Virus record (IMG/VR): IMGVR_UViG_3300047491_000684
Span: 1 to 38,997 of that record
DNA: 38,997 nt
Strand: one strand, 5' to 3'
From: a virus
Shown: positions 12,664 through 38,997 of the stretch, piece after piece
Layout: each line of letters opens with the position of its first letter
How positions within the stretch are numbered: the first letter of the stretch is position 1
Program-made: the position numbers and the translations under genes
Notes under the pieces: model-generated
Databases searched by the model: none
What the model saw: the letters and a program-made list of their open reading frames with translations, nothing else
What the model was told of the DNA's origin: nothing

Positions 12664-12672
12664 ATATTTATA
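12664..12672 (+). promoter_or_regulatory. ATATTTATA box upstream of the gene at 12689
   Basis: Same TTATATTTATATT string as at 104-116, placed 16 nt before the ATG at 12689; spacing differs by only 1 nt from the first copy. Confidence 0.35.
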
Positions 12673-12688
12673 TTCCGAATATATCGCT

Positions 12689-13450: not shown

Positions 13451-13466
13451 TTTAATATTGCATTAT

Positions 13467-13868: not shown

Positions 13869-13889
13869 TAAAAAATCGAATAAAATAAG

Positions 13890-13918
13890 TTGTAATTCTC
13901 ACGTTTTAGTTGTATAGT
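13890..13918 (+). promoter_or_regulatory. Sigma70-like promoter for the gp32-like gene
   Basis: TTGTAA (13890-13895), a 17-nt spacer and TATAGT (13913-13918) sit about 100 nt before the ATG at 14021. This is the only sizeable gap before the replication block, so a promoter is expected here. Confidence 0.4.
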
Positions 13919-13925
13919 GTTATAT

Positions 13926-14020
13926 GTATTGGAGCTAAGAAGTTGAGATTTGAATTCTGGTTCAATGATTAACTGATTACTCTAATTAATTAATTCATTC
14001 ATTATAAAGGAAAAATAATT
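13926..14020 (+). other. A/U-rich leader of the gp32-like gene
   Basis: About 95 nt lie between the predicted start site and the ATG. The 3' part holds the repetitive unstructured run TAATTAATTAATTCATTCA (13984-14002), followed by the good ribosome-binding site AAAGGA (14006-14011). In T4, gp32 represses its own translation by binding an unstructured leader next to a pseudoknot; this layout would allow something similar, which is inference. Confidence 0.35.
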
Positions 14021-14812
14021 ATGTCGATAAATGTAGCAAAGCTTGCAGATCGCCTCAGACAATTCGAAGAGGGAGCCAAGGCTTCCGAATTCGCAAAATA
14101 CCTATGGAAACCCAAAGAAGGATTACAAACCGTACGCATTGTTCCGTACAAGTTCAATCCCGAAAATCCGTTCATAGAATTGAAGTTCTATTATAAGATT
14201 GGAGACAAGAATTATCTCGCTCCGTGTACCTTTGGGAAGCCCGATCCGATCATGGAAACCATAGAAACTCTTCGTTCAAGTGGAAGCAATGAAGAGACGG
14301 CGCTCGCAGCCAAACTGTCACCCGTAGCACGTACATATGTTCCTATCCTCGTTCGTGGCGAAGAGGAACTGGGAGTGCGATTCTGGGGATTTGGCGTGCA
14401 AGTCTATAAGCAGCTTCTAAAGTTGATGACCAATCAGAAATATGGCGATATTACATCTTATACCGAAGGTCGGGATATTGAGGTAGAATTCCACAAGGAA
14501 AGCAAGAAGAAGAACGGTCAGGGACAATCATTCCCCGAAACGAATATCCTTGCCGATCCCAATGTTTCACCTGTAGTTAATCCACAACGCCGAGACTTGA
14601 TGGAAAAGGTGCGTGATCAAGTGGATATTTTAACCGTCTTTCCATTAAAGTCATACGAGGAGCTTAAGGAAGCGGTTGAGAAGTGGATAAATCCCGAAGG
14701 CGCAGATCCCGGTCGAGTTACGTCGCAGGGATCGCCCGCAGTGACGCCATCTAACGCTCCGGCGGCTCAAGATCTAGCCAATGTATTCGATAGTTTCTTC
14801 CAAAAGTCCTAA
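14021..14812 (+). CDS. Single-stranded DNA-binding protein, gp32-like
   Basis: A 263-aa protein with the gp32-type OB-fold pattern: LWKPKEGLQTVRIVPYKF, then LKFYYKIGDKNYLAP, and later RFWGFGVQVYKQLLKLM and DIEVEF strands. The N-terminal 20 residues are basic/acidic helical, as in the cooperativity arm. A Pro/Ala linker precedes a short C-terminus ending NVFDSFFQKS. This end is less acidic than that of T4 gp32, which contacts other replication proteins. The zinc-binding His/Cys set of T4 gp32 is absent; only one Cys lies in the corresponding area (YLAPCTF). It stands first in the replication block, ahead of the UvsX-like gene, with its own promoter and a clear ribosome-binding site. Confidence 0.82.
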   Translation: MSINVAKLADRLRQFEEGAKASEFAKYLWKPKEGLQTVRIVPYKFNPENPFIELKFYYKIGDKNYLAPCTFGKPDPIMETIETLRSSGSNEETALAAKLSPVARTYVPILVRGEEELGVRFWGFGVQVYKQLLKLMTNQKYGDITSYTEGRDIEVEFHKESKKKNGQGQSFPETNILADPNVSPVVNPQRRDLMEKVRDQVDILTVFPLKSYEELKEAVEKWINPEGADPGRVTSQGSPAVTPSNAPAAQDLANVFDSFFQKS

Positions 14813-14847
14813 CATTGGAAGATAATTGACCGGATAAATAAAATAAC

Positions 14848-14883
14848 TTGAGGGATGATGGCAATGATGCTATCATCCCTCAA
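14848..14883 (+). terminator. Long perfect hairpin between gp32-like and uvsX-like genes
   Basis: The arms at 14848-14859 and 14872-14883 are perfectly complementary (12 bp). Three further pairs (one G-U) extend the stem to 15 bp around a 6-nt loop. There is no T run after it, so it may be an attenuator or RNA-processing/stability element rather than a simple terminator. The uvsX-like ATG is 15 nt downstream. Confidence 0.6.
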
Positions 14884-14897
14884 TCCATATAAAGTTT

Positions 14898-16085
14898 ATG
14901 ACCACAGAAAAAAAGAAATCCTCCAGTAAGCATATTGTAAGTGACGTAGTCGAGCGTGATGATTTAGCGTTGCTACTTCAAAAAGAGTTAAATAAATCAA
15001 ACAAGGATGGGAGCAAGGCGTCATTTTTCTTAGATGATGATGACAATCCTGCGCAAGTCCTAGAATGGGTATCTACGGGTTCTACATTGTTGGATTTAGC
15101 AATTTCAAATCGTCCACATGGTGGATTGCCCGTTGGACGAATGATAGAGCTTAGTGGGTTGGAAGGCACTGGCAAATCTCTAATCTGTGCTTCTATTATC
15201 GCCGAGACGCAGAAGCGTGGAGGGCTGGCGGTATTCTTTGATTCCGAATTTTCAGTAGATAGAAATTTCTGGACAGCACTCGGAGTGGATATTAAAAATG
15301 TCAATTATGTCCCATTCACCACGCTTGAAGAATTTTTTAATAAATTCGAACTTTGTGTTGGCGCATTTAGAAAGGCGAATAAGGATCGTCTTCTTACAAT
15401 TTTCGTGGATTCTGTAACTCAAGCGTCGGTCGAAAAAGAGATGGAAAGTGACCACGGAGTTGATGGGTATAATACTGGTAGAGCAATTGTAATTAGCAAA
15501 GCCATGCGCAAATGCACTGGGCTAATAGCACGTCAGCGGATTCTCCCCGTCTTTACAAATCAAGTCCGTTATAATATGAACTCAGGTCCATTTGGTGATA
15601 AGTGGATTGTTCCGGGTGGTAAAGCTTTACCATTCGCATGTTCCGTTCGTGTTCGGCTTGCCAATTTGGGCAAGATTAAAGATGGAAAGACTAAAGATGT
15701 CATCGGGATGGAATGTCAAGCGCAGGTGATTAAAAATCGTTGCGGACCAAATTATCGTACCGCAGGATTCGATATTCACTATGATTCGGGAATTCAAGAC
15801 TTGGCGAGCTGGTTAACAGTGATGAAAAAATATGGCATTGTATCGGGCGATGGGCGTGGATATGAATACAAACGCCCCGATGGATCTACGATTGAATTCA
15901 CAACTCCCAAATTTGTTGAGTTGATGAATACCGATTCAACCTTGAAGGAAGAAGTCTATCAATCTATATGTCGTAGTTATATTATGCAATATCGTGATCC
16001 GAATAGCACCATTGTTGAGGATACTGAGCGGACAGGCGATGAAAATGATGACATCACCAAAAACGCCATAACCGAAGACGAATAG
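14898..16085 (+). CDS. uvsX: RecA/UvsX-like recombinase
   Basis: A 395-aa RecA-fold protein. Walker A is GLEGTGKS (K93). The Walker B region is LLTIFVDSV. The FFDSEFS strand and the loop region with FTNQVRYNMNSG and GGKALPFACSVRVRL match UvsX-type recombinases, which pair homologous DNA and drive recombination-dependent replication. The C-terminal 60 residues are acidic (DTERTGDENDD), as in UvsX. The frame begins at ATG 14898, just after a 15-bp hairpin. The neighbours gp32-like and FEN-like are natural partners. The next gene starts 5 nt after the stop. Family is certain; the UvsX name is by phage context. Confidence 0.9.
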   Translation: MTTEKKKSSSKHIVSDVVERDDLALLLQKELNKSNKDGSKASFFLDDDDNPAQVLEWVSTGSTLLDLAISNRPHGGLPVGRMIELSGLEGTGKSLICASIIAETQKRGGLAVFFDSEFSVDRNFWTALGVDIKNVNYVPFTTLEEFFNKFELCVGAFRKANKDRLLTIFVDSVTQASVEKEMESDHGVDGYNTGRAIVISKAMRKCTGLIARQRILPVFTNQVRYNMNSGPFGDKWIVPGGKALPFACSVRVRLANLGKIKDGKTKDVIGMECQAQVIKNRCGPNYRTAGFDIHYDSGIQDLASWLTVMKKYGIVSGDGRGYEYKRPDGSTIEFTTPKFVELMNTDSTLKEEVYQSICRSYIMQYRDPNSTIVEDTERTGDENDDITKNAITEDE

Positions 16086-16090
16086 CGGTT

Positions 16091-16315
16091 ATGAAAAGAC
16101 AAAGTAATAAACATACTGGATATGCCGTATATTCGGAATATAGAGATGAGTTTATTTCGCCAGTCTATGGTACGTTGGAAGAGTTGGACGACGATTTGAA
16201 AAATAATAAATTGGAGATAACCGATGAGGATTATATGAATAATCTGATTATTTATACAATGACTCCCGTTACATCGGTGGAGATATGTCAGGCTTATTCT
16301 CTTATTAAAACATGA
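16091..16315 (+). CDS. Small acidic unknown protein
   Basis: A 74-aa protein beginning MKRQSNKHTGYAVYS, with an acidic middle (EELDDDLKNN). The start is 5 nt after the recombinase stop, and the end overlaps the next start as ATGA. This tight packing supports a real, translationally coupled gene. No family recognised. Confidence 0.65.
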   Translation: MKRQSNKHTGYAVYSEYRDEFISPVYGTLEELDDDLKNNKLEITDEDYMNNLIIYTMTPVTSVEICQAYSLIKT

Positions 16316-17385
16316 ACCTGAGTAAAGAAGAGCGACAGAACTTGTGGTCCGTGTTTAAGAAAGGAGTCGCCGTCACGAAAGAAGAATGGACTCGAAAAAC
16401 GAATTCCAATATACTTTTGGTGGATGGAACTAATACTTTTATTAGATGCTGGGCGGCGAATCCAACATTAGATGAAAATGGAAATCATACCGGAGGAATT
16501 GTGGGGTTTCTCAAATCCGTCGGATACGGCATTAAACTTCTCGGTCCAACGAGATGTGTGGTTGTGTTTGATGGAATAGGCGGCTCATATAAGCGGCGTC
16601 AGATTTTCCCGCAGTATAAGGAGAACAGAAAAGGACGCATTCGGCTTAACAGAGCGTATGAAGAAATGTCTGATCCGAAGACGGAAGAGGAGCAGATGCG
16701 GAAACAATTCATCAGATTGGTTCAGTATTTGCAGACTCTTCCAATCAATATGTTATCAATAGATCACGTCGAGGCAGATGATGTGATTGCATACCTTGCC
16801 ACGGATTATTTCAAATCGTCCCGCAGAGTATACATTATGTCTAGTGATAAAGATTTTTTACAATTATGCACGGATAATGTGTGTGTGTATTCTCCAACAA
16901 AGAAGCGCATTTATGGTCCTTCCGAAATACTTGCGGAATATAACATTCATCCTAATAACTTTGTTCTTTTCCGAGCACTGAGCGGTGATGATTCTGATAA
17001 TATAGATGGAATAGAATTAGCGGGACCGAAAACGATTGTAAAACATTTTCCTTGGCTAAAGGAAGAGACTGTACATACTACGGATGAAATTGTATCTTTA
17101 GCAGAAGGCATACGAAACAAATACAAAGTTTGTGAAAACATTGCCTCTAATAAAAATTTAATAGATCGAAATGTTGCGCTTATGCAACTTCGGGATACGG
17201 CACTGACCACGACGGCTCAATTGCATTGTAACGAATGTCTTGATACGCCAAAAATTCCCAGATTAGATCGGGGGACATTCTTTAAGATGGTTCGGGAAGA
17301 TTTGTTGGATAATGGTATTCCGAATCACGTTTCGTGGTTAGACGAAGTATTTGTACCAATGGATAGTGTAACTAGAAGCGAATGA
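16312..17385 (+). CDS. 5'-3' exonuclease/flap endonuclease, T4 RNase H-like
   Basis: A 357-aa protein of the FEN/5'-nuclease family. Visible acidic metal-binding motifs are ILLVDGTNTFIRCW near the N-terminus, VVVFDGIGG, HVEADDVIAYLA, then MSSDKDFLQLC. A helix-hairpin-helix-like region follows with LSGDDSDNIDGI and LAGPKTIVKHFP. The enzyme removes RNA primers and 5' flaps. In T4 the same role is played by RNase H (gene rnh). It overlaps the upstream gene by 4 nt (ATGA) and the downstream one likewise. Because the family A polymerase in this window lacks such a domain, the two together could stand in for full-length Pol I functions; this is inference. Confidence 0.87.
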   Translation: MNLSKEERQNLWSVFKKGVAVTKEEWTRKTNSNILLVDGTNTFIRCWAANPTLDENGNHTGGIVGFLKSVGYGIKLLGPTRCVVVFDGIGGSYKRRQIFPQYKENRKGRIRLNRAYEEMSDPKTEEEQMRKQFIRLVQYLQTLPINMLSIDHVEADDVIAYLATDYFKSSRRVYIMSSDKDFLQLCTDNVCVYSPTKKRIYGPSEILAEYNIHPNNFVLFRALSGDDSDNIDGIELAGPKTIVKHFPWLKEETVHTTDEIVSLAEGIRNKYKVCENIASNKNLIDRNVALMQLRDTALTTTAQLHCNECLDTPKIPRLDRGTFFKMVREDLLDNGIPNHVSWLDEVFVPMDSVTRSE

Positions 17386-17624
17386 CGGAGAATATGAGAA
17401 AATATACATTTTTTAGATTTGGCCGCACTTATGTGAGACGGGACAGAATGATGGCGGTTAAATTGCTACATGGCAATAGAAAAAGTGGATATATATTTGC
17501 TGTCATCCTTGCGCACCCATATTTTTTGGTGGAAAAGCTCAGACTTCAAAGTCGAATAATATTGAATGATCGGAGTTGGATAGAAGTTGAAATGAATGCA
17601 GTAATTGGAAATGGTAAAATTTGA
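17382..17624 (+). CDS. Small basic unknown protein
   Basis: An 80-aa protein whose ATG overlaps the exonuclease stop (ATGA). An in-frame ATG at 17394 is an alternative. The sequence is basic (FFRFGRTYVRRDRMM) with a hydrophobic middle (GYIFAVILAHPYFLV) that is short for a TM segment. No family recognised. The overlap and the following 38-nt A-rich gap support it as the last gene of this sub-operon. Confidence 0.5.
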   Translation: MTENMRKYTFFRFGRTYVRRDRMMAVKLLHGNRKSGYIFAVILAHPYFLVEKLRLQSRIILNDRSWIEVEMNAVIGNGKI

Positions 17625-17662
17625 GACGGATAGATAAAAAATAAACAAATAAATAAGTAAAT

Positions 17663-18343
17663 ATGAAAAGAATGATAAGTAACATTGTATTAGCGATGAC
17701 ATTGGTGTTTTCGGCAAATGCCGGGATGATTCTGTATACGGATCAACCATCATTTGTAACCGCAATTGGAGATCATCCATATGCGGTGAATAATTTTGAT
17801 GATTTGAAAGATGTATGGGGATCTACGCCAAACTTGAGATATACCTACGGTAATATAAATTATAATATTGCAAGTTTACCCGAAGATGCAGCGTACGCTA
17901 TGAATGGAGCAGTCGGAGCATTGGATAATGGCGTAGATGGTCCCGTATTGCGGGTATTTATAGACTCGTATATCAGAGCCATCGGCATGAATGTATTTGG
18001 TACAGACGCCGAAGCAAACTCGAAGCCAGCTACCGATTTCACGATTGATATGTACGGCGTAGATGAGGGTGGATATTATGTCGGCGGAGCCACGGATGGG
18101 TTCTACGGCTTTATATTGGGCAGCAAGCAAACCGGCGCATATTTGGACATCTATAATCCTAATTGGGCCACGGATAACATATATCCAAGCTTGGACGATA
18201 TCTACATTTCCACAATGGATAATTCGGGTGGGATTGGATCGGTGGATACTCCCGAGCCCGCCGTTATGATTTTAAACGGAATTGTATTAGCGGTTGGCGG
18301 AGGTATTGCATATATTCGCAGAAAAAATATAATTACGACTTAG
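17663..18343 (+). CDS. Exported protein with PEP-CTERM-like sorting tail
   Basis: A 226-aa protein. Residues 1-20 form a signal peptide (KRMISNIVLAMTLVFSANA, cleavage likely after ANA). The body is Asp/Gly/Tyr-rich and beta-like, with no catalytic motif. The C-terminus has the three-part PEP-CTERM layout: PEP at 197-199, a hydrophobic segment (VMILNGIVLAVGGGIAYI) and a basic end (RRKN). In exosortase-bearing bacteria this tail directs processing at the envelope. Such proteins are hallmarks of bacterial, not phage, genomes, so the gene was probably taken from a host. It sits between the exonuclease and helicase genes, next to a secreted protease. The tail call is strong by eye; the function is unknown. 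Confidence 0.75.
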   Translation: MKRMISNIVLAMTLVFSANAGMILYTDQPSFVTAIGDHPYAVNNFDDLKDVWGSTPNLRYTYGNINYNIASLPEDAAYAMNGAVGALDNGVDGPVLRVFIDSYIRAIGMNVFGTDAEANSKPATDFTIDMYGVDEGGYYVGGATDGFYGFILGSKQTGAYLDIYNPNWATDNIYPSLDDIYISTMDNSGGIGSVDTPEPAVMILNGIVLAVGGGIAYIRRKNIITT

Positions 18344-18387
18344 GTTGAATATATGTATCGAGGATACAAACTCAAAATTATTTCGAC

Positions 18388-18423
18388 GGCCATCTCCAAC
18401 GAATATTAAGTTGGAGATTGGCC
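18388..18423 (+). terminator. Hairpin between PEP-CTERM-like and subtilase genes
   Basis: Arms at 18388-18400 and 18410-18423 pair over 13 bp with one bulged T and a 9-nt loop. It is followed by AATTATTTAT and then the ATG at 18434. It could end transcription of the upstream gene or control translation of the protease. Confidence 0.55.
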
Positions 18424-18433
18424 AATTATTTAT

Positions 18434-20947
18434 ATGAAACATAGAATATTCAACATAGTGATAGGTGTGATACTGATGGTGGGTGCGTTAAGTCCTACAA
18501 AAATCTTCGCTGATAATATAATTTACAGAGATACCCCCACCATTTCTCGAGCAAATGCAATTACAAATAATGCGGTATTGATAAAATTGCGGAATAACAG
18601 ACAGAAGGATGTTGACAGATTAATATCGGCCTTTAATAAGCATCATTATCGCAATATTGGATTGATCAAGATGGATGTTAAGAGGGATAGTAGAATTATC
18701 AAACTACTTGAAGCCAACGGGTTGATAGAATTTGTAAATGAAGATAAATTAATAAGTTTAAATTTAGACTCCAACGATACTTTTTATTCTGCTCAGTGGG
18801 GATTGACCAATGCGATGGTTAATATGGCGTGGGATTATCGTATTGGCGGATTAGATGCGATAGTGGCCATTTTAGATACGGGGATTGATTGCACTCATCC
18901 CGATTTAATAAATAATATTTGGTTTGATATAGATGGGACGAGTGGATGGACTGCAAGAGACGGTGTACTAACCAAGGGTTCTATGGATGATCACGGGCAC
19001 GGCACACATTGTGCGGGAATTGTCGGTGCAGTTGGAAATAACGGATACGGAATAGCGGGGATTAATTGGCAGACTAAAATGGTGGGATTTAAATTTTTGA
19101 AAAGCGACGGTCGAGGGTGGGAGTCGGATGCTATATTATTAATAGATAAGATCATCGAATTAAAACAGTCGGGATTAAATATACGAATTGTAAATAACTC
19201 GTGGAGTAGTGCGGGGTTAAAATTGGATGAGAGTTTAAGATTGGCATTCCAACGTTTAGAAGAGAGTGATATATTGTCTACTGTAGCAGCGGGTAATGAT
19301 GGGAATAACATTGATGCGACGCTGATAGAACCGGCTTGTTATACAAATAGAGGCATTTTAACAGTGATGGCAATAGATAAAAATAATTTTAAACCTATAT
19401 GGTCTAATTATGGTTATTGTGTGGTGGATATAGCAGCGCCGGGAGTAAATATTTTAAGCACCGTGCCATTTAACACTAATTTGGCAATGGGAAATGTGAG
19501 TGGATTTGCGTTGGCGTCGGGAACTTCTATGGCAACGCCGCATGTATCGGGCATTGCTGCCCTCGCTCTGTCTCATAATCCCATGTTATCTGTTTATGAA
19601 TTGAAGGATTTGTTGTTAAATCATAATAGCACGGACACGCTGACTAATGTGGCTGCTATTTCTACAACTCATCGTAAAATCAATGCTTACAAAGTAATAA
19701 CAAATCCGTTATTATTCAGCCCGGCAACAAATACGCTGCCGACGATGGATGTTATATATAGCAAGACGGTGCGTGGCGGGGAAAATATTTATATTTCAGT
19801 TATTGTGACCGATCCCGACAATACTCCTATACATTATTTATTAACTTCAGAAGACGGCGTGGATAGTCCGGGGTCATTTGCGCCAAGAATTACATTCCCC
19901 ACAATAGAAAATCAGCCACAGATGGTAATTAAAGCGCCACAATATAGTATAGACTATGTGGCTAGATTTACGTTGCGAGTATTTGATGGATGTGGTGGAA
20001 TGATATCTCAAAAGTTTTATGTTAACATTCTACGATCTGCGGTATCATACACGATGCCAACTATGGTTGAGAATGTATACTTTACTAATGGTAATATTTA
20101 CTCGCAGCTATGCTATGAACCGAGCGATAAAATTGCTCCATTCATGTCGCATTTATTTTTTGTATCTAGTAAAAATAATAACGTTGGACTAGTCAGACAC
20201 CCCGTGGCGAATTGTGAAGAGGTTGAAAATCCGTGGCTTCTTCCCGACGTACTTCCTCGGGAAACTAATAGCAACACATATGTGGTAATGTCTCGAGTAG
20301 AAGATTCCGCACGTAATATATTCAAACTTCCGTCGCAGTATGTTCGAGTCGGTAATGATACGAATTATAATTATCAAGCTCCGACCGTTATATTAAAAAT
20401 TACAAATGATGTAGATCCCCTGTCGATTAATTATGATTTGCGGGATTCATATGATCCGAAAGGAAGTATTGTTCAATTTATATTAGCGGGACCGAACGGG
20501 TGGAAATTTCACCTGCCTACTACCGGAAAAATAACATTTCCTGAGCCGGGGACGTATATGGTAGAAGTATTTGGCATCGGGATGGATGGGTTTTGGGTTT
20601 CGGAATATGCATATGCAACAGTATTTGGTCCATCGCCAATAGTGGAATCGCCCCCCGTGGTAATGTTGAAAAAAATAACCAATCTGAAAGTTACTCGTAG
20701 TATGGCGAATGTTTTACTTTCTTGGGTGGACAATTCCACCAACGAGGCGGCATACGAAGTTGCAGCGTCTTCACAAGGCACGACCAACGTTTATAAACTA
20801 CCTCCGAACAGTACATCTTTCTCGTATGTTATCCAATACTCTATTCCACACACATTTCAGATCAGATCTACATTCGGCGCTGAAATGGCCCCCGTGGAAA
20901 CAAAGGTGGTACAAATATTGCGACCTAAAAACGTAGAAGTTAAATAA
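18434..20947 (+). CDS. Secreted subtilisin-like serine protease (S8)
   Basis: An 837-aa protein. A signal peptide covers about residues 1-27 (FNIVIGVILMVGALSP, then IFA). A propeptide-like region follows (about 30-115; VLIKLRNNRQKDVDRLI). The S8 catalytic domain contains AILDTGIDCTHPDL (D148), DDHGHGTHCAGI (H189), the oxyanion AAGNDG, and SGTSMATPHVSG (S365); all catalytic residues are intact. The C-terminal 450 residues are beta-rich domains. One near the end looks like fibronectin type III (ITNLKVTRSMANVLLSWVD). The enzyme should act outside the cytoplasm. It pairs with the preceding exported protein and is flanked by hairpins. A host origin is likely. Possible roles are surface-protein cleavage at lysis or receptor removal; neither is shown by sequence. 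Confidence 0.88.
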   Translation: MKHRIFNIVIGVILMVGALSPTKIFADNIIYRDTPTISRANAITNNAVLIKLRNNRQKDVDRLISAFNKHHYRNIGLIKMDVKRDSRIIKLLEANGLIEFVNEDKLISLNLDSNDTFYSAQWGLTNAMVNMAWDYRIGGLDAIVAILDTGIDCTHPDLINNIWFDIDGTSGWTARDGVLTKGSMDDHGHGTHCAGIVGAVGNNGYGIAGINWQTKMVGFKFLKSDGRGWESDAILLIDKIIELKQSGLNIRIVNNSWSSAGLKLDESLRLAFQRLEESDILSTVAAGNDGNNIDATLIEPACYTNRGILTVMAIDKNNFKPIWSNYGYCVVDIAAPGVNILSTVPFNTNLAMGNVSGFALASGTSMATPHVSGIAALALSHNPMLSVYELKDLLLNHNSTDTLTNVAAISTTHRKINAYKVITNPLLFSPATNTLPTMDVIYSKTVRGGENIYISVIVTDPDNTPIHYLLTSEDGVDSPGSFAPRITFPTIENQPQMVIKAPQYSIDYVARFTLRVFDGCGGMISQKFYVNILRSAVSYTMPTMVENVYFTNGNIYSQLCYEPSDKIAPFMSHLFFVSSKNNNVGLVRHPVANCEEVENPWLLPDVLPRETNSNTYVVMSRVEDSARNIFKLPSQYVRVGNDTNYNYQAPTVILKITNDVDPLSINYDLRDSYDPKGSIVQFILAGPNGWKFHLPTTGKITFPEPGTYMVEVFGIGMDGFWVSEYAYATVFGPSPIVESPPVVMLKKITNLKVTRSMANVLLSWVDNSTNEAAYEVAASSQGTTNVYKLPPNSTSFSYVIQYSIPHTFQIRSTFGAEMAPVETKVVQILRPKNVEVK

Positions 20948-20978
20948 ATCGCATAGAATTTAATATTCTGTGTAGTAC

Positions 20979-20995
20979 GACCCACATTGTGGGTC
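20979..20995 (+). terminator. Hairpin after the subtilase gene
   Basis: GACCCAC (20979-20985) and GTGGGTC (20989-20995) form a 7-bp stem with a 3-nt loop, 30 nt after the stop. An AT-rich stretch with ATATTTTT follows at 21005-21012. Probable terminator ahead of the helicase gene. Confidence 0.5.
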
Positions 20996-21091
20996 TAAAG
21001 TTTCATATTTTTCGAAGTATTGTCGTCGGACTTATTATAAATTTACATTTTTGAAAAAATATGGTAGGATATTGGATATAAACAACGAAAT

Positions 21092-22507
21092 ATGAATAAT
21101 AACTTAAGCGAAAGTAACAATCTTAAAAAGTACGGAAAAGTTTTTCAGTCCAAATGTATTGCAATTTTAATTTCTGATCGTGCATTCATAGAACGCACGA
21201 TGGATATTATTTCCCCGGATTATTTCGAAACTGATGCCCACCGATGGATTCTTAAATTGACAATGGAATATTTCCCGAAGTATAGAAATATTCCGACAAT
21301 GGAAGTATTCAAAGTAGAAATTCAAAAGATTTCGGACGTGGTTATGAGTGCGGCGGTGTTTGAAGCAGTCAAGGATGCATATCAACATGTCTCGGCATCT
21401 GACAGTGAATATGTTAAGGCACAATTTCTGGAATTTTGTAAAAATCAGAAGTTAAAAAATGCAATATGGGCTGCGCAAGCATATCTTAACGATGGCGATT
21501 ATGATAGTATATGGCACGTCATAAATGAAGCCTCCAGAGCAGGTATGGAGCGAAATCTTGGCCACGAATATTTGTCTGAAGTGGATTTGCGTCATTCCGA
21601 TATGTCTCGTGAAACGATCAAGACGAATTGGGATATCATAGATACACACCTAGACGGCGGCTTAGGGAAAGGAGAGCTTGGATTCATCGTTGCTCCTGCG
21701 GGTTCGGGAAAATCGTGGTTTTTGACTCACTTGGGAGCGGAGGCAATGCGACAAGGAAAAAACGTGATGCATTTCACGATGGAATTGAACGAAAAATATG
21801 TCGGACTTCGATATGATTCTGCCTTTACGGGCATCGCATTTCAAGAAGTTCGAAAACAAACGTCCGATGTTAAAGCAAAGTTGGATGTGCTTAAATCCAA
21901 TGGACTTGGGAAATTATTTGTTAAATATTTTCCAACAAAAACAGCATCCGCTGCAACGCTTAAGATGCACATTGATAGAGTGCAATTAGTCACAGGTCTT
22001 AAAATAGACTTAGTAATTGTGGATTACGCCGATCTTCTTCGTCCGTTTATGATAGAAAAGGGATCGAGCACATACAATGATGCGGGAAGCGTATATGAAG
22101 AATTGCGGGGAGCGTTGGGCGAACTCCAAGTGCCGGGGTGGACCGCATCTCAATCAAACCGTGGAGCACACGAGGAAGATATCATAGAAGCATTGGATGT
22201 GGCGGATAGTTATCGAAAAATTATGATTGGTGATTTTATCATGTCACTTTCACGTAAGATGCAAGATAAAATAGCAGGCACAGGACGAATATATGTTATG
22301 AAAAACAGATTCGGTCCCGATGGCATAATGTATCCTTGCGCATTCGATAGCTCATGTGGATCTATCAATATCTACGATAAGAAATCGATAGAGGGTATGG
22401 AAATTCTTAATAAAGCTAAGAGCGCACAGGAGGGTCTGAAAGATCTCCTTCGTAAAGGATGGGGAGATACTCATCACAAAAAGAATAACCATTCGGACTC
22501 GGAATAA
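21092..22507 (+). CDS. Replicative DNA helicase, DnaB/gp41-like
   Basis: A 471-aa protein with a DnaB-type N-terminal helical domain (ISPDYFETDAHRWILKL) and a RecA-like helicase core. Walker A is APAGSGKSW (K207). The linker before it (HLDGGLGKGELGFIVAP) and the following MHFTMELNEKYVGLRYDS are typical of DnaB-family helicases. Walker B is IDLVIVDYADLLRP. The Q-rich motif appears as GWTASQSNRG. It unwinds DNA ahead of the polymerase as a hexamer and would recruit primase; no primase gene is visible in the window. The end is Lys/His/Ser-rich. It precedes the ribonucleotide reductase gene, separated from it by a 20-bp hairpin. Confidence 0.88.
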   Translation: MNNNLSESNNLKKYGKVFQSKCIAILISDRAFIERTMDIISPDYFETDAHRWILKLTMEYFPKYRNIPTMEVFKVEIQKISDVVMSAAVFEAVKDAYQHVSASDSEYVKAQFLEFCKNQKLKNAIWAAQAYLNDGDYDSIWHVINEASRAGMERNLGHEYLSEVDLRHSDMSRETIKTNWDIIDTHLDGGLGKGELGFIVAPAGSGKSWFLTHLGAEAMRQGKNVMHFTMELNEKYVGLRYDSAFTGIAFQEVRKQTSDVKAKLDVLKSNGLGKLFVKYFPTKTASAATLKMHIDRVQLVTGLKIDLVIVDYADLLRPFMIEKGSSTYNDAGSVYEELRGALGELQVPGWTASQSNRGAHEEDIIEALDVADSYRKIMIGDFIMSLSRKMQDKIAGTGRIYVMKNRFGPDGIMYPCAFDSSCGSINIYDKKSIEGMEILNKAKSAQEGLKDLLRKGWGDTHHKKNNHSDSE

Positions 22508-32424: not shown

Positions 32425-32890
32425 ATGATGGTTATATTAACCGAGGATGAGTAATTGAAGCCGAAACTTCAACACGACGAGGACCGAAAGACCTTTGTTA
32501 AGCGAATTGATGTGGAGCTTTCATTGTGGGAATGTGTAGAAGACTTGGTTAAGTTGTACGCTCAGTAATATGGGGCTCCGCCCGAATTTCTCAATCCCAG
32601 ATTCAACGCCGCAATTTCAAAGTTTTGGGAAAGGATAGAATATACAGGCCCGATTTTTTGTTGATGGCAAAATATTAGTAGAAATAAAACCGAAGAAATT
32701 GTGGAATACCGAAGAAGTGGTTGCCAAAAAACTAGCTGCGGAAGTCTTTTGTAATAAAAATGGCTATGAATATAAACTAGTTGATGTAATTCCCAATTCG
32801 AAATTATTGAAAGAAAAGTATCTAAATGGTGAAATAAGATTTGTTGAAAAATATAAAGAAAGGTTTGAACGATATGCGGGAATCATCTAA
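32425..32890 (+). pseudogene. Decayed TnsA-like/PD-(D/E)xK nuclease gene
   Basis: A strong AAGGAAGG (32410-32417) precedes ATG 32425. The frame then reads coherently (MMVILTEDE, KRIDVELSLWECVEDLVKLY, YGAPPEFLNPRFNAAISKFW) but is broken by in-frame TAA at 32452-32454 and 32566-32568. A frameshift near the T run 32654-32659 moves the C-terminal half to another frame: FFVDGKILVEIKPKKLW, then AAEVFCNKNGYEYKLVDV, ending at 32890. The VEIKPKK stretch and the Cys-Gly-Tyr helix are typical of TnsA-like phage nucleases, in which a preceding PDF supplies the metal-binding Asp; here the frameshift falls exactly at that place. Real decay or assembly errors are both possible. The end overlaps the dNMP kinase start. 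Confidence 0.65.
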
Positions 32891-33557
32891 TATAAAAGTG
32901 ATCGGGTGTAGCGGTTATGCCCGCTGTGGGAAAGATACATTTGTGAATATAGCCAAAGATATTTTGGTTAAAAACAATTATACTCCATTGCGAGTAGCCT
33001 TCGCCGATAAACTAAAGGTAGAAGTTGGAGAGATGTTGGCGGATTGCGGGTTCGCAACGCCCAGCAATGCGGAAGATGAGGAACAAAAAAGACGCATTCG
33101 GCCTTTATATGTGTGGTGGGGATGTCAGCGAAGATACGAGAGTGAGGGTCAATTATATTGGGTCAACGCCGTGGATGATCAATTGAAAGCTATAGTGGCT
33201 GATATGACTCATAATGGAATGAGTGACGAGCGAATAGTGGCGATGGTGGCGGATGTTCGATTCGTCAATGAAGCTATGTGGATTCACAATCAGTGGGGTG
33301 GAAAAGTTATCCATTTAAAACGCTATAAACTTGCTTTTGATAAAGTTTTAAAAGATCGGAAGGAATACGATCCTGCACCAAATGAAGAGGAGGCGAAGAA
33401 TGATCCTCTGGTACAAGACATTGCGGATTTTCATATAGAGTGGGAAAGTCGCAGAAAATATACGCCCGGGGCTGCGGTGACAGATTTGTATCTTCGGAGC
33501 ATAGTTCTTAAAACCCTCAACGATATGGGGATTTTTACCGAGACACTGTCGCTATAA
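32874..33557 (+). CDS. Deoxynucleoside monophosphate kinase, T4 gp1-like
   Basis: A 227-aa kinase with the P-loop GCSGYARCGKDT (K20) near the N-terminus. LRVAFADKLKVEVGEML and VADVRFVNEAMWI correspond to the nucleotide and substrate regions of T4 dNMP kinase (gene 1). It converts dNMPs to dNDPs and complements the class II ribonucleotide reductase. ATG 32874 has AAGAAAGG (32856-32863) at good spacing; the longer TTG frame at 32841 is less likely. It overlaps the end of the decayed nuclease gene, and its 3' end overlaps the convergent minus-strand gene by 23 nt. Confidence 0.78.
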   Translation: MRESSNIKVIGCSGYARCGKDTFVNIAKDILVKNNYTPLRVAFADKLKVEVGEMLADCGFATPSNAEDEEQKRRIRPLYVWWGCQRRYESEGQLYWVNAVDDQLKAIVADMTHNGMSDERIVAMVADVRFVNEAMWIHNQWGGKVIHLKRYKLAFDKVLKDRKEYDPAPNEEEAKNDPLVQDIADFHIEWESRRKYTPGAAVTDLYLRSIVLKTLNDMGIFTETLSL

Positions 33558-33828
33558 GTCCGCCGTCATCATAGTAAAATGCAATGCGTCCTTCGGGTAT
33601 TTTTTGTAGGAGGGCGTTTTTGTATTTTGGGACAATGTGAATTACTGCGCTGTTATATAATTTACAGCACATCGCATACATGCGTTGCTTGTCCTCGACT
33701 TTATAACAATTGCAAGATGCTTGAAAATTATTCATACATTGAATGATTTGCAAAAATCCATTGTCTAAGGATTGAAATCCATTTGAACTTATAAAGCTTG
33801 TGAATTGTGTTACGTTGCGAATATCCAT
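33535..33828 (-). CDS. Unknown 97-aa protein, last gene of the leftward operon
   Basis: A protein beginning MDIRNVTQFTSFISSNGF with five Cys in the middle (SCNCYKVED, AMCCKLYN) and a beta-like end (EGRIAFYYDDGGLIATVS). No family recognised. It follows the membrane-protein gene by 1 nt and converges on the dNMP kinase gene. No clear terminator separates the two convergent transcripts. Confidence 0.55.
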   Translation of the reverse strand: MDIRNVTQFTSFISSNGFQSLDNGFLQIIQCMNNFQASCNCYKVEDKQRMYAMCCKLYNSAVIHIVPKYKNALLQKIPEGRIAFYYDDGGLIATVSR

Positions 33829-33829
33829 A

Positions 33830-34165
33830 TTATCCTAAAAGTTTGTCTATGATTAAAAATAGAAGCAATCCTCCCACAATATAAATTGGTATAAGACAGA
33901 GTGCGGTCAATATTCCAAATCCAATTCCCCACCATACGGCTTGACAGATCGGACAGGTAAGCATTCTAATTGCAAAACAGTTGTGGTACATCCGCAAATA
34001 TTTGAGATAAGTTAGGGATGCATCTTCTTTGTATTTGGAATCGAAATCTTTATAATACGACATCCAATTTAAATGAAAAATGCGGGTATATTCTAACCAA
34101 GCCTCAGTTCGAAACCATATTAATAAATTTATGGCAATTAAACATATGACGATGAGTATGTTCAT
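33830..34165 (-). CDS. Small membrane protein with CPxC motif
   Basis: A 111-aa protein with hydrophobic segments at the N-terminus (ILIVICLIAINLLIWF) and in the C-terminal half (GIGFGILTALCLIPIYIVGG and LLLFLIIDKLLG). Between them lie a soluble Tyr-rich region and MLTCPICQAVWWG, a motif placed just before a TM helix, as in several small phage membrane proteins of unknown role. It sits directly after the glycosyltransferase gene in the leftward operon, so it may belong to the same surface-modification function. Confidence 0.6.
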   Translation of the reverse strand: MNILIVICLIAINLLIWFRTEAWLEYTRIFHLNWMSYYKDFDSKYKEDASLTYLKYLRMYHNCFAIRMLTCPICQAVWWGIGFGILTALCLIPIYIVGGLLLFLIIDKLLG

Positions 34166-34179: not shown

Positions 34180-35481
34180 TTAGATTACTTGAAATGTAAG
34201 ATTTAACGGCGGATTTGTGACTCGTATGTTTTCTTTTATTTTATTAACCACTTTATTAATAACGAGAGTGCCAACTCCATCCAATTCAAATTCCCCCGGC
34301 TCCTCATTACGATTGGCGTGAATTATATCATTCAAGTGATGGAATATATGAGGATATTTGTTGAATATTTCACCAAAAGAACGATTATTTAGAGAAACAT
34401 TGAGAATTATATCGTCGTCGGTGATTATGTTATTAGAATAAATGTCATTAAACTCCCACGTATGATAATATTTTTTATAAATTTCCCAATTGTCTTGAGA
34501 AATATTTAATAAATCGTTTGCGGGCCGATGAAATTGTCCATATACTTTTTGCAATTCACGCCTAGTTTCTTCGTTATCTATAAAGATCCGGTTGAATATT
34601 GCGTAATATTTTAACAGATCATAATCCCGTGGAGAGGCATTGCGGAAATTGACGGAGATGGGATACTTATATTCGGTTTCGGGATTAAATGTAGTATCGT
34701 GTTTAAAAGAAGGCCACTTTCGGAGAAAGCGTTGCATTTCTATTGCGTCAGCCGCTTGTTGAAGCTGCGTTCGCATCTTTGCCTTTTCGGTCCACCACTC
34801 GATCCCACGAGACGATGTACATGTAAAGTGATAAACAATTGCATTCCACGTTTGTTTGATTTTTAGTCCCATCATCGAGAATCTGTAAAGCAAATCCGAA
34901 TCTTCTCGTGAGCGGCGAAATAATGTATCGTGACCTCCAATATTATTCCAGTTCTTTTTATATAAAGTAAATGGGGCAAACCAACAGTCGGTCAATTTAT
35001 CCGCTTTGCATTTTTCGGCAAATGCGGAGAGCGCATTTAAATCAAACGTTTTTGGATCTAACCCAAAATCATATGTAATTTTTTCGGGGGATGGGGGATG
35101 AAGTGGGGGTTCTATGCGAGTGGCTGAGATAATAGTATCTTCTTGAAGATGTTTAAGGATTTCCACATCATAATTTGGTCCGAGCACCATATCGCTTTGT
35201 ATGTAAGATACGATTGGATGCTTGGCCATTTCAAACATTAAATTTATATTTCGGGCATATCCCAGTGGGATGGGGAGGGGATTGATGATGATCTTAAGAT
35301 GTGGAAAATATTCCTTTTGAGATTTTAGAAATCCCACAGTATCTTGGTTGTCATTTTCTACATAAACGAGAATCTCATGGTCTGTTTGGGAAAGATTCTG
35401 CCGCATTGAGCGAAATAAAAGTTCAATGTGCTGTCGTTCATTTATTGCAGTGTTAATGCAAAAGCTTATTTGCTCTATCAT
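34180..35481 (-). CDS. Family 2-type glycosyltransferase
   Basis: A 433-aa protein. Residues 1-250 show a GT-A fold: FCINTAINERQHIELLFRSM, HEILVYVENDNQDT, LGYARNINLMFEMA, then IVSYIQSDMVLGPNYD as the metal-binding DxD-like region. NIGGHDTLFRRSREDSDLLY (the acceptor/ED motif) follows. The C-terminal 170 residues are unassigned. It transfers a sugar from a nucleotide donor; the acceptor is unknown. It overlaps the epimerase gene by 29 nt, indicating joint expression. It may add the product of the upstream enzymes to phage or host surface molecules; this is inference. Confidence 0.8.
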   Translation of the reverse strand: MIEQISFCINTAINERQHIELLFRSMRQNLSQTDHEILVYVENDNQDTVGFLKSQKEYFPHLKIIINPLPIPLGYARNINLMFEMAKHPIVSYIQSDMVLGPNYDVEILKHLQEDTIISATRIEPPLHPPSPEKITYDFGLDPKTFDLNALSAFAEKCKADKLTDCWFAPFTLYKKNWNNIGGHDTLFRRSREDSDLLYRFSMMGLKIKQTWNAIVYHFTCTSSRGIEWWTEKAKMRTQLQQAADAIEMQRFLRKWPSFKHDTTFNPETEYKYPISVNFRNASPRDYDLLKYYAIFNRIFIDNEETRRELQKVYGQFHRPANDLLNISQDNWEIYKKYYHTWEFNDIYSNNIITDDDIILNVSLNNRSFGEIFNKYPHIFHHLNDIIHANRNEEPGEFELDGVGTLVINKVVNKIKENIRVTNPPLNLTFQVI

Positions 35482-36316
35482 ACTGTTTTAATTTTTTATA
35501 ACATTCCATTATGCCTGCGTCCATTCCTTTTAATTGAATATTTAACCGTGATAGACGCAATCCACATCCGCTGTAATTTTTACCACAGGTGCTATTCTCA
35601 ATAATAATATCTACTTTGTGATCGTCCATTGCATTTATAATATTTGCAATATCACTCAGCCGTGGGGTAGTCAGGTATGACATATTCATATCCACCGTTT
35701 CTCTTATTGGTGATGATGGTTGGAGAAAATGCCGTATTACGGTTGCTAAGTCTTCCATATAGAAAAAGTCCATATACCTGTCTTGTGGTATGATAATTGG
35801 ACGCTGATTTATATAGTTTTCTATACTTGCTCTAATCATTCTGGTTGGAAGTTCATTATGGTAGAAGCATCCAAATATTCTCAAATTAATAGCGTTTGGA
35901 AGTGTAAGCAATCGTTTTGCAATAATACTCTTTGCGAGACCATAATAATCTGTAGGAACGTCATCCCATATCGCTCCCTCGAATTTTTTTGAAATGCTGT
36001 TCCATCGATTGTATTCTGCGCCACTTCCGATGTTGATGAATAAATTTCCACAATATTCGGAGTAAAGATTTTCGAACATTGACAAATTGTTATAAAAATC
36101 CAATGCGGTGTCCGTGTCTCTGCCATTCCCTTCCACTGCGCAATGAATGACTGCATTTATATTGTTGACGGTTTTAAATTCACGGATTGATTTTCGAGAA
36201 TATAGATCTATATCCGCTCGACTGCCCGCAAATAAGGTAATATCGGGAACGTTTGCCAATAAAGTTATTAGATTAGATCCGATGAATCCGCCACTTCCTG
36301 TTATTAATACTCTCAT
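35453..36316 (-). CDS. NAD-dependent epimerase/dehydratase (extended SDR)
   Basis: A 287-aa Rossmann-fold enzyme. The cofactor motif GSGGFIGS (residues 7-14), Ser98 in NIGSGAEY and the catalytic YxxxK (Y125, K129 in YYGLAKS) are intact. The family acts on nucleotide sugars (epimerisation, dehydration or reduction). The position between the aldolase and glycosyltransferase genes of a leftward operon fits synthesis of an unusual sugar. The 109 nt before its start show no clear promoter or gene, only an A/T-rich stretch. Confidence 0.85.
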   Translation of the reverse strand: MRVLITGSGGFIGSNLITLLANVPDITLFAGSRADIDLYSRKSIREFKTVNNINAVIHCAVEGNGRDTDTALDFYNNLSMFENLYSEYCGNLFINIGSGAEYNRWNSISKKFEGAIWDDVPTDYYGLAKSIIAKRLLTLPNAINLRIFGCFYHNELPTRMIRASIENYINQRPIIIPQDRYMDFFYMEDLATVIRHFLQPSSPIRETVDMNMSYLTTPRLSDIANIINAMDDHKVDIIIENSTCGKNYSGCGLRLSRLNIQLKGMDAGIMECYKKLKQYDRANKLLH

Positions 36317-36425
36317 TTTATTAAATTTATATACTGTTCTGTCAATTCCTTCTTCGGCCCGTTAAATTCTTATACGGGATGTAATTTTAGAATATTCTCA
36401 TCTTTGGCGTAAATATCTCCTATTC

Positions 36426-37436
36426 CTATTTCGTTGATCTTTTTTTCAAATTTTGACCCACTTCTAATATTATATCTTCTTGTCCTGCGACTAGTTTTCG
36501 ATTGCCCAATTCGAAAATTAAAGATGAATACTGCAATCCGTATAATTTAGACGCTTTTATTATAGGCTTTTCAAATCCCGAAAATAATTTATTAAGTCCT
36601 GTGAGAATATTGATCGGAGCAGTAATTGGGGCATTTTTAATCATGTATTCCATGACGGTATCTGCTTCTAATATTATTTTTTGAAAATCGATGTTTGTGT
36701 GATATCCGGATTGTTCTAATACTGGAATTAATGCCTCTAATTGAGTATTGCCAGCACCGGCACCGAATCCACGAATACACGCATCAATGACGCTTGCTCC
36801 ATACTGAACTGCTATTAATGAATTGGCAATTGCCAGTCCCAAATTGTTGTGGCCGTGAAATCCAACTTCAATTGATAGATTGTCTTTTAAAGCTTTTATT
36901 CTTTCTTCTACATCCGCAGGGAGATATGTTCCTGTGGAATCCATCATTAGAAAAGTTTTGGCACCGTAATCTTCCATTTTTCTTGCTTCGGATACTAAAG
37001 TATTAACGTCTGCCAACGCAGACATCATAAGAACACCATATGCGGTCTTTCCCTTATTTATTACGTGCTCAATATGTTTTTGTGTAATGTTTGCTTCAGT
37101 AACATGACTGGCAATTCTAAAAATATCAACTCCTAATTCTATCGCCGGTTGAATATCTCTATCAATTGTGGCAAGTCCCGGAATAACATGAACTCCCAAT
37201 TTGGATTTTTTAAGATTTTCTCTTGCAACAGATAGCATTCTTCTATCTGTATGAGGCATCTGCCCTATTAATAAGGATGATGCCCCCAATCCATTACCAT
37301 GTCCTACTTCTACCACGGGAATTCCTGCCGAATCCGCAAAACGACAATATCGTTCGACTGCGTTTATATCAATCTGATGCTTTACGCAATGATTTCCATC
37401 TCGAAGAGATGGGTCGCTAATTAATATATTTTTCAT
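36426..37436 (-). CDS. 4-hydroxy-2-oxovalerate aldolase-like enzyme (DmpG/MhpE family)
   Basis: A 336-aa TIM-barrel aldolase of the HMG-CoA-lyase-like family. SLRDGNH (R12, D13) supplies the catalytic Arg and metal-binding Asp. VEVGHGNGLGASS, GVHVIPG and the metal-binding HGHNNLGLA also match DmpG/MhpE. A C-terminal small domain as in DmpG is present, and length matches the family (about 337-345 aa). DmpG splits 4-hydroxy-2-oxovalerate to pyruvate and acetaldehyde, reversibly, and channels acetaldehyde to its partner DmpF. The partner gene is immediately upstream and overlaps by 4 nt (ATGA). The hydratase of the catabolic pathway is absent, so degradation of aromatics is unlikely; a synthetic role is suggested. 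Confidence 0.88.
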   Translation of the reverse strand: MKNILISDPSLRDGNHCVKHQIDINAVERYCRFADSAGIPVVEVGHGNGLGASSLLIGQMPHTDRRMLSVARENLKKSKLGVHVIPGLATIDRDIQPAIELGVDIFRIASHVTEANITQKHIEHVINKGKTAYGVLMMSALADVNTLVSEARKMEDYGAKTFLMMDSTGTYLPADVEERIKALKDNLSIEVGFHGHNNLGLAIANSLIAVQYGASVIDACIRGFGAGAGNTQLEALIPVLEQSGYHTNIDFQKIILEADTVMEYMIKNAPITAPINILTGLNKLFSGFEKPIIKASKLYGLQYSSLIFELGNRKLVAGQEDIILEVGQNLKKRSTK

Positions 37437-38290
37437 AATATTCCTTCCGCAACTTTAATAGCGGCACAGTTAATAATATCCAAATTTCCGGCATAACTTG
37501 GGAGGTAATCTCCAACTCCACGAACACGAATGCTAAACATTAAAACTCCATCTTCATTAATGACAGGCATCATTACCATTTCATAATTGGGAACATATTC
37601 TCTAACCTCTTTAATACGCTCATTGAGTTTTTCTTGAACTTTATTAAAATTAATATCCGCCCCCTTGATAAACATCGTCGTCTGCATATCAACACACGGT
37701 TCGGCTGGATTAATATTAAGAATAACCTTGCATTTGTTACATTTTGTAAATTGTCTAATAGCGTCTTCCGTTGTGTGAATGTAATGGTCGATGTTTTTTC
37801 TAGTGGCCAATCCGGCACTTTTTGAAGCGATCTGAGATACAATTTCAATATAATCGATTTTATCGCAACATTGTGATATTAAGTGCAGAACTGGAATTGA
37901 TGTTTGACCTCCACATGTTATCATGTTAACATTTTGTTTTTTTGCAATGATATTTTTATTAATAATGGGAACACACATCGGTCCTATTTTGGATGGAGTC
38001 AGATCAATGACACGGATTCCCAATTCGTGAAATATAATATTGTTTTCTTTTGCTGTAAACGCATCGGTACAATCAAACACGATGCGAACATTATGATGTG
38101 CAGATTTAAAGTAATTGATTCCGTCTGTGGATGTTTTTATACCCAATTCTTTCGCTCTTTTAATACCGTCCGAATCATCACGGCGACCAACGAAGGCGGC
38201 ACATTCTAATTTCTCATTTCGCACAAGCTTCATGAGAAGGTCTGTTCCAATATTTCCAGTACCTATAATTCCTACAGGATATTTACTCAT
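37433..38290 (-). CDS. Acylating acetaldehyde dehydrogenase-like enzyme (DmpF family)
   Basis: A 285-aa enzyme. The NAD-binding motif IIGTGNIGTDL lies at the N-terminus. The catalytic Cys126 is in ITCGGQTSIP, the DmpF signature. A C-terminal dimerisation region follows (RVRGVGDYLPSYAGNLDI). DmpF interconverts acetaldehyde and acetyl-CoA with NAD and forms a complex with the aldolase DmpG. The two genes overlap as in bacterial pairs. It also overlaps the TPP-enzyme gene by 4 nt (ATGA). Length is slightly shorter than DmpF (about 312 aa). In this operon it could supply acetaldehyde for carbon-carbon bond formation. Confidence 0.87.
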   Translation of the reverse strand: MSKYPVGIIGTGNIGTDLLMKLVRNEKLECAAFVGRRDDSDGIKRAKELGIKTSTDGINYFKSAHHNVRIVFDCTDAFTAKENNIIFHELGIRVIDLTPSKIGPMCVPIINKNIIAKKQNVNMITCGGQTSIPVLHLISQCCDKIDYIEIVSQIASKSAGLATRKNIDHYIHTTEDAIRQFTKCNKCKVILNINPAEPCVDMQTTMFIKGADINFNKVQEKLNERIKEVREYVPNYEMVMMPVINEDGVLMFSIRVRGVGDYLPSYAGNLDIINCAAIKVAEGIL

Positions 38291-38997
38291 AATCGTTTGA
38301 TTTGTTTAGATTTTTCACTCAATCCGCCAATCATTACTTCTTTCATTTCTTCAATCGAAAGAAGTGGCGACATTTCTTCCAATGGCGATGGTGTAATAGT
38401 TCCGTCTTCATTTGCTAATCCCTTTACTTTAGGTAGAAACTCTTGTTCTGGGTCCATGAATACTTCCAATATCGAGGGGGTTTTATGTTTTAAATATTCG
38501 GTTATGACTTTTTCAAAATTTATCCACGCACGTAATTTCCAAGTTCTAAATCCAAAACTTGTTCCTATATCAGTATAATTTGGAAGGCTTAAGCCTGTAT
38601 TAATATTGACCGACGTTCGGTATCCTTTGAAAAGCATATTTTGAGTATGTTTAATCATCAAATAACCATCGTTATTAAATACTACTATTTTTATATTCAT
38701 TTTATGATGAATTATGGTTTGTAATTCTTGCAAATTCATCATCATACCACCATCACAGTTTAAACAGATGATTTGCCTATTTGGAAATGCTTTTGCTGCA
38801 CCAATCGCTCCGGGTAATCCATATCCCATTTCGCCCAATCCCAGCGAAGTAAACATAATTTGATCCGGTTTTAATCGCATAGAATAATGCCCGCTTAATA
38901 GTGCAGTTCCCATATCGGTAACAATAATTGCGTCGTCGTCTATGTAATCGTTTAATTTATCTAAGAAATGATAAGAATTTATATAATTTGACGTATT
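38287..38997 (-). CDS. Thiamine-diphosphate-dependent enzyme, acetolactate-synthase-like (partial)
   Basis: The 236 visible residues are the C-terminal third of a ThDP enzyme; the gene runs off the right edge. LGLGEMGYGLPGAIGAAKAF and the ThDP/metal motif NCDGGMMMNLQELQT, ending in FNNDGYLMI, are clear. The usual GDG is CDG here. The tail (EQEFLPKVKG, DGTITPSPLEEMSPLL) matches acetolactate-synthase-like enzymes. These decarboxylate pyruvate or another 2-oxo acid and add the fragment to an acceptor. The following genes in the operon make or use acetaldehyde and pyruvate. It may form a branched sugar or keto compound, as YerE does; inference. Confidence 0.82.
   Translation of the reverse strand, partial: NTSNYINSYHFLDKLNDYIDDDAIIVTDMGTALLSGHYSMRLKPDQIMFTSLGLGEMGYGLPGAIGAAKAFPNRQIICLNCDGGMMMNLQELQTIIHHKMNIKIVVFNNDGYLMIKHTQNMLFKGYRTSVNINTGLSLPNYTDIGTSFGFRTWKLRAWINFEKVITEYLKHKTPSILEVFMDPEQEFLPKVKGLANEDGTITPSPLEEMSPLLSIEEMKEVMIGGLSEKSKQIKRL

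Follow-up and report, generated by a model that had tools for sequence, protein, structure and literature searches.

A gene cassette at the right end of a linear IMG/VR contig of 38,997 bases (IMGVR_UViG_3300047491_000684; its whole length is referred to as the window) probably encodes the core of an erwiniose (YerE-like) nucleotide-sugar pathway in Immutovirus-related T4-type phages. The cassette consists of genes for a thiamine diphosphate (ThDP)-dependent carboligase, a DmpF-like acetaldehyde dehydrogenase, a DmpG-like pyruvate aldolase, a short-chain dehydrogenase/reductase (SDR) and a glycosyltransferase (Table 1). An earlier note on this DNA had considered that these genes could build an unusual branched sugar. 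Such a product is the best reading of the sequence comparisons and is well supported by them, among others by the co-occurrence of the core with RfbH in related phages and by a homologous gene series in a bacterial contig, L046.

All five reading frames lie on the minus strand where the earlier note had placed them, their families hold in Pfam and NCBIfam, and the two 4-bp ATGA overlaps, ThDP/DmpF and DmpF/DmpG, can be read directly and are real. The SDR gene starts 109 bp beyond the end of the aldolase gene and, because of this gap, is not translationally coupled to it; the glycosyltransferase and SDR genes overlap by 29 bp. The viral collection, scanned twice, yielded 44 loci from 40 distinct contigs. 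Of 40 other IMG/VR contigs, 37 have the ThDP-DmpF-DmpG core in this order and the remaining three are fragments that start within DmpG; the ThDP/DmpF overlap of 4 bp recurs in 35 of 37 viral loci. Wherever a phage locus is complete, DmpF and DmpG adjoin the ThDP gene. Furthermore, an SDR-family gene comes next after DmpG in 37 of 40 loci, and a gene of the SDR superfamily stands ahead of the ThDP gene in 29 of 37. This gene order is not due to chance. The ratio of nonsynonymous to synonymous substitution rates (dN/dS) of the core is roughly 0.04–0.17 in close pairs, indicating purifying selection. A fixed core of three genes with an SDR added describes the cassette better than the five-gene operon first noted; the glycosyltransferase occurs without the core in Immutovirus.

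As the contig ends inside the ThDP gene, only its C-terminal 236 codons lie in the window, and a homologue from a related phage contig (L010), 75% identical over the shared part, serves as the full-length stand-in. Among PDB entries, this enzyme matches JanthE of Janthinobacterium sp. HH01 (8RPH) at 619 bits and the next structure at 271 bits, JanthE being the nearest solved relative by far. The unusual ThDP-binding motif CDG and a lysine aligned to JanthE K567 are present in 39 of 39 phage-clade rows, the window included (a one-residue offset in chain numbering is assumed). Judged by these similarities, the phage ThDP enzyme is of the JanthE type, nearer to characterised YerE-like members than to acetolactate synthase, though the phage enzymes form a clade separate from JanthE. 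YerE-like enzymes, JanthE among them, couple a decarboxylated keto acid to a ketone and thereby branch sugars of lipopolysaccharides; JanthE accepts 4-hydroxy-2-oxovalerate and likewise pyruvate (PMC12188165). The substrate of YerE is pyruvate, while ErwE, the maker of erwiniose, refuses pyruvate and takes 4-hydroxy-2-oxo acids (PMC12247030). A JanthE orthologue (1099 bits) of Pseudomonas sp. P7548 (L077) sits beside RfbH, DmpF and DmpG.

The two enzymes encoded next to the carboligase both pass the cut-offs of NCBIfam equivalog models, TIGR03215 for acetaldehyde dehydrogenase and TIGR03217 for 4-hydroxy-2-oxovalerate aldolase. DmpF carries a TCGGQ motif whose C126 is invariant in 14 of 14 aligned phage copies, and the catalytic residues of the aldolase (R12, D13, H16, H194 and H196) are invariant in the phage copies. 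As in the DmpF/DmpG, BphJ/BphI and MhpF/MhpE pairs of aromatic degradation, the two families, the catalytic residues and the communication domain are kept. Unlike those pairs, the phage enzymes have no hydratase partner, stand in a biosynthetic context, occupy their own tree branch and differ at the two positions that control stereochemistry: His83 replaces BphI Leu87 and Phe285 replaces BphI Tyr290 in all 38 phage DmpG copies (38/38), whereas Leu and Tyr are found in 5 of 5 catabolic references. The same two substitutions are seen in most DmpG copies of bacterial polysaccharide loci. In BphI, stereocontrol is lost in Y290F, and the L87N/Y290F and L87W/Y290F variants switch to the (4R) form (PMC3962088). 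From these variants, a set without His at position 87, the product of the phage aldolase is predicted to be (4R)-4-hydroxy-2-oxopentanoate. In reverse operation, with acetyl-CoA and pyruvate as starting materials, DmpF and DmpG would provide exactly the hydroxy keto acid donor of the ErwE/JanthE type.

The acceptor sugar is indicated by neighbouring genes in the relatives. An orthologue of RfbH, the enzyme that forms 4-keto-3,6-dideoxy sugars, is found in 24 of 33 phage contigs, with one further partial, cut copy; those tested (L011, L018 and L044) score above the equivalog cut-off, and in phage RfbH the diagnostic His replaces the lysine that binds pyridoxal phosphate. In the representatives scanned (L011, L018 and L027), a 4,6-dehydratase is located just upstream of the ThDP gene. 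Its phage copies reach 280–302 bits with the deoxythymidine diphosphate (dTDP) model, the cut-off of which is 365, and at most 77 bits with the cytidine diphosphate (CDP) model; they are thus nearer to the dTDP-glucose type, though short of the cut-off of both models. A search of 22 phage contigs gave no stand-alone cytidylyltransferase. Both enzymes of a CDP carrier, RfbF and CDP-glucose dehydratase, are present in the bacterial L046. The phages may therefore use a dTDP carrier, or else a precursor of the host. L046 is from a Flavobacteriaceae metagenome-assembled genome; there, one run (4244–11014) encodes RfbF, RfbG, RfbH, the ThDP enzyme, DmpF and DmpG, the first three each above cut-off, and this operon is a possible case of genes passing between phage and host. 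Two side observations belong here. An unusual fusion for a phage sugar island is encoded in L018 (1132–2982), a protein of 616 amino acids that begins with a nucleotidyltransferase domain and in its middle resembles the capsule biosynthesis phosphatase EcbF/BcbF. Large core-bearing contigs (>100 kb) without a clear RfbH orthologue are those of L033, L037 and L038.

A reaction order can be proposed for the cassette. DmpF, working in the reducing direction, which we infer, would convert acetyl-CoA and NADH to acetaldehyde; this would be channelled to DmpG and condensed with pyruvate to 4-hydroxy-2-oxopentanoate, predicted to be the (4R) form. The JanthE-type enzyme would then decarboxylate the keto acid and attach the resulting four-carbon acyl unit at C4, the keto position of a nucleotide-bound 4-keto-3,6-dideoxyhexose. 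This acceptor would be provided by the 4,6-dehydratase and RfbH, whose genes most relatives carry within the island and which are here presumably encoded past the end of the contig. The SDR encoded after DmpG, proposed to play a YerF-like role as reductase of the branch ketone, would reduce the side chain to give a 4-C-branched ten-carbon sugar. The last step, which is the least certain, would be transfer of the sugar by phage glycosyltransferases to an acceptor in the cytosol, for which a virion protein is the likeliest candidate. What the sequences show directly is the order of the genes, their families and conservation, the catalytic residues, the phylogeny and the co-occurrence with RfbH; from these we infer the reaction direction, the donor and acceptor, the stereochemistry and the product.

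Erwiniose is a 3,6-dideoxyhexose bearing a further four-carbon chain at C4, and the proposed carbon count fits this structure. The phage system resembles the ErwE pathway of Pectobacterium atrosepticum in that a ThDP carboligase would add a hydroxy keto-acid chain to a nucleotide-linked 4-keto-3,6-dideoxy sugar, in that an RfbH-type route to the acceptor is present in most related phage islands, and in that a source of the 4-hydroxy-2-keto acid, DmpF/DmpG, adjoins the carboligase. It differs in being phage-borne, in a dehydratase nearer to the dTDP type and in the lack of a stand-alone cytidylyltransferase among the contigs searched; the comparison with ErwE is by description.

Comparable gene sets in bacterial surface-polysaccharide loci had been mentioned in the earlier note, and the same set is indeed found there. 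A scan of bacterial genomes with a single DmpF sequence returned nothing, and one with a DmpG alignment gave 80 loci; DmpF, DmpG and the ThDP enzyme, often with RfbH, occur together in polysaccharide loci of many bacteria from several phyla. In the trees of DmpG, the ThDP enzyme and DmpF, the phage copies and L046 stand on one side of a branch with top support in all three. Homologues from bacterial polysaccharide loci neighbour this clade, and in the DmpG tree the catabolic aldolases (pWW0, pWW53, NAH7, Rhodococcus and E. coli MhpE) group apart. Phage RfbH proteins make one group, and the RfbH of L046 lies outside it. The core of L046 may fall within the phage clade or next to it: in an approximately unbiased test on DmpG the phages alone as one clade are not rejected (p 0.57). 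The depth of the phage clade suggests long retention of the module by the phages, with no repeated fresh acquisition.

Several observations weigh against the proposed pathway or parts of it. In the window, neither RfbH nor a 4,6-dehydratase is seen, the contig ending before that region, and the ThDP gene itself is truncated. Eight of the 33 phage contigs, some longer than 100 kb, are without a clear RfbH, and the acceptor sugar may therefore vary within the lineage. The nucleotide is unsure because the dehydratase scores best with the dTDP model yet falls below its cut-off. The SDR family is variable (dN about 0.6–0.75), which makes the case for one fixed reductase weak. The glycosyltransferase is a homologue of Immutovirus gp169, a gene of the lineage that occurs also without the core, and its tie to the branched sugar is thus unproven. 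Finally, since JanthE takes pyruvate too, the four-carbon donor is not proven by the ThDP enzyme alone. If the phage enzyme used pyruvate, which is the YerE substrate as well, a two-carbon, yersiniose-like branch would be made, and DmpF and DmpG would serve separately, for example in clearing or making acetaldehyde. We regard this as improbable: each complete phage locus has both genes coupled to that of the ThDP enzyme, many bacteria from several phyla have all three side by side, and the joint product of DmpF and DmpG is the donor type preferred by ErwE, whereas a two-carbon branch needs neither enzyme. Much less probable still is a catabolic auxiliary cassette, in which DmpG would cleave 4-hydroxy-2-oxopentanoate and DmpF would make acetyl-CoA for the infected cell. 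TIGR03215 and TIGR03217 are named for catabolic enzymes, and in one virome study the gene for this aldolase is placed under amino-acid metabolism (PMC13303688). However, the absence of a hydratase remarked on earlier holds: the cassette is not adjoined by a hydratase or any other catabolic gene, and neither a hydratase nor a dioxygenase or decarboxylase is seen nearby in the window and its relatives, while such genes flank dmpFG on reference plasmids. In addition, phage DmpG branches with the polysaccharide-locus enzymes, both of its stereo-control residues differ, and the core is surrounded by sugar genes.

The least probable explanation is an artefact, with the contig a chimera or the viral collection contaminated by bacterial DNA. 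The core is found only in metagenomic contigs: among 50,697 phage records, a full-length match to the core dehydrogenase and aldolase comes solely from a Salmonella contig entered as phage. The earlier note had named a chimera at about 33.5 kb, where the cassette and the backbone meet tail to tail, as a point to be checked. An identical series of gene families runs across this junction in L010, L011, L012 and L044; the junction is thus shared by five contigs, the window included, and a chimera there is very unlikely. Five large core-bearing contigs (131–183 kb) encode an Immutovirus-type (T4-like) major capsid protein, 56–63% identical, the core forms its own clade, and further copies are flanked by Immutovirus-type endolysin and holin genes or by homologues of gp168–gp164. 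The cassette genes are genuine phage genes, chimera or contamination being very unlikely. Concerning where the sugar goes, the erwiniose-like pathway might instead alter the surface of the infected cell (O-antigen or capsule), perhaps as a defence against other phages. The bacterial homologues sit in surface-polysaccharide loci, and phage-borne O-antigen sugar genes have been reported and read in that way (PMC11295528). Neither a Wzx-type flippase (PF01943) nor an initiating transferase (PF02397) was found, however, in 19 phage contigs and Immutovirus, and 0 of 674 island-region proteins of at least 150 amino acids have four or more hydrophobic segments, while multi-spanning proteins are encoded in 40 of 80 bacterial loci. 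A lasting surface change would also gain less for virulent T4-type phages, which the relatives look like. A host-surface role is accordingly unlikely, if less so than the three explanations above; these negative results favour the virion or another cytosolic acceptor over a new host-surface polymer, and the sugar would probably serve a phage-made sugar coat, although it might also feed into machinery of the host. Decoration of DNA, also mentioned earlier, has no specific support.

The pathway is known in kind from bacteria; what is new, within the literature searched, is a stable phage-owned branch of it with a possible change of nucleotide carrier. No relevant paper on phages and branched-chain sugars was found in that literature. 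RfbH (PMC11295528) and the aldolase (PMC13303688) are each mentioned in isolation in virome gene lists, without this context, and a 2025 review of YerE-like carboligases refers to viruses as an unexplored source (PMC12247030). Autonomous glycosylation in chloroviruses and mimiviruses is similar in that the viruses carry nucleotide-sugar enzymes for rare sugars and their own glycosyltransferases, but the pathways reviewed there are those of rhamnose, fucose, viosamine and similar sugars, and carbon-branching is not among the headings of the review (PMC4691112). The fullest version of the proposal, in which a pathway long owned by the phages has moved to a dTDP carrier and makes a (4R) ten-carbon 4-C-branched sugar for glycosylation of their own virion proteins, is speculative and, with all its parts taken together, rather doubtful. 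If true, it would make these phages the first viruses to produce a branched-chain higher-carbon sugar. More generally, the rare branched sugar that the gene set appears to build is of a kind otherwise known from polysaccharides of bacterial surfaces, and, once confirmed, its synthesis would be a chemistry unusual for any virus. Phages would then carry sugar chemistry that forms carbon-carbon bonds, beyond sugar transfer alone, and aldolase/dehydrogenase pairs annotated in viromes as catabolic auxiliary metabolic genes could be biosynthetic. The role of sugar islands in large tailed phages becomes directly testable, given some 40 related loci in phages, one clade that unites the phage copies, a defined order of reactions and two residues on which a stereochemical prediction rests.

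Table 1. Cassette genes and neighbouring features of the window
Feature	Coordinates	Strand	Matches and remarks
ThDP-dependent YerE-like/JanthE-type carboligase, C-terminal 236 aa	38287..38997	-	PF02775 (TPP_enzyme_C) 4e-31
DmpF-like acylating acetaldehyde dehydrogenase, 285 aa	37433..38290	-	AcetDehyd-dimer 3e-40; TIGR03215 333 bits (cut-off 282)
DmpG-like pyruvate aldolase with communication domain, 336 aa	36426..37436	-	HMGL-like 8e-43, DmpG_comm 4e-14; TIGR03217 326 bits (cut-off 286)
Extended SDR, NAD epimerase/dehydratase family, 287 aa	35453..36316	-	PF01370 (Epimerase) 2e-15
GT-A family 2 glycosyltransferase, 433 aa	34180..35481	-	PF00535 (Glycos_transf_2) 6e-6; no transmembrane segment
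Small protein (F16), two hydrophobic segments	33830..34165	-	After the glycosyltransferase in nearest relatives
Small conserved protein (F40), cassette end	33535..33828	-	Tail to tail with phage backbone; also in L010, L011, L012, L044
Deoxynucleoside monophosphate kinase-like gene (F41)	32841..33557	+	phrog_139 4.5e-19; first backbone gene past cassette; same neighbour in L010, L011, L012, L044
Phage replication module	11280..22507	+	Content and order similar to Immutovirus

The glycosyltransferase is modelled with a confident GT-A fold (AlphaFold2 pLDDT 92.6), and domains of K4CP and TarP are among its best PDB matches, which do not give the donor specificity. The 109-bp spacer between DmpG and the SDR (36317–36425, minus strand) can be translated into a short peptide, for which nothing convincing was matched, and is perhaps the remnant of a lost gene. 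In searches of isolate-phage records, the other matches to the aldolase and dehydrogenase are distant superfamily members, and those to the ThDP enzyme, at most 31.5% identical, are acetolactate synthases where annotated, many of them in bacterial or unannotated contigs. AFYI01000006.1 and its sister records are Salmonella chromosome contigs apparently filed among phages, and they yield false phage matches for metabolic enzymes.

The terminase profile PF17289 had no match in the phage contigs and decided nothing. The window itself has no capsid gene, and its relatedness to Immutovirus is that of the replication module and the glycosyltransferase. The module holds part of a family-A polymerase, a single-stranded DNA-binding protein, a recombinase (UvsX-like), an exonuclease and a DnaB-like helicase; a ribonucleotide reductase is also encoded in the window outside the cassette. 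Flavobacterium phage Immutovirus immuto shares with the core-bearing phages the T4-like capsid protein seen in the five large contigs, a similar order of replication genes, and a sugar island with a related glycosyltransferase sited between lysis genes and small backbone genes, but its island consists of other sugar genes, without the ThDP-DmpF-DmpG core and without an RfbH orthologue. L037 (13970–15871) encodes a phage protein in which a cohesin domain is combined with a Por_Secre_tail sorting domain; it is related to an Immutovirus protein and points to Bacteroidota hosts. Elsewhere in the window, a protein of 728 amino acids (28013–30199, plus strand) has as its sole isolate-phage relatives (27–32% identity) proteins of Microcystis phage Mel-JY01 and of a 484-kb uncultured phage.

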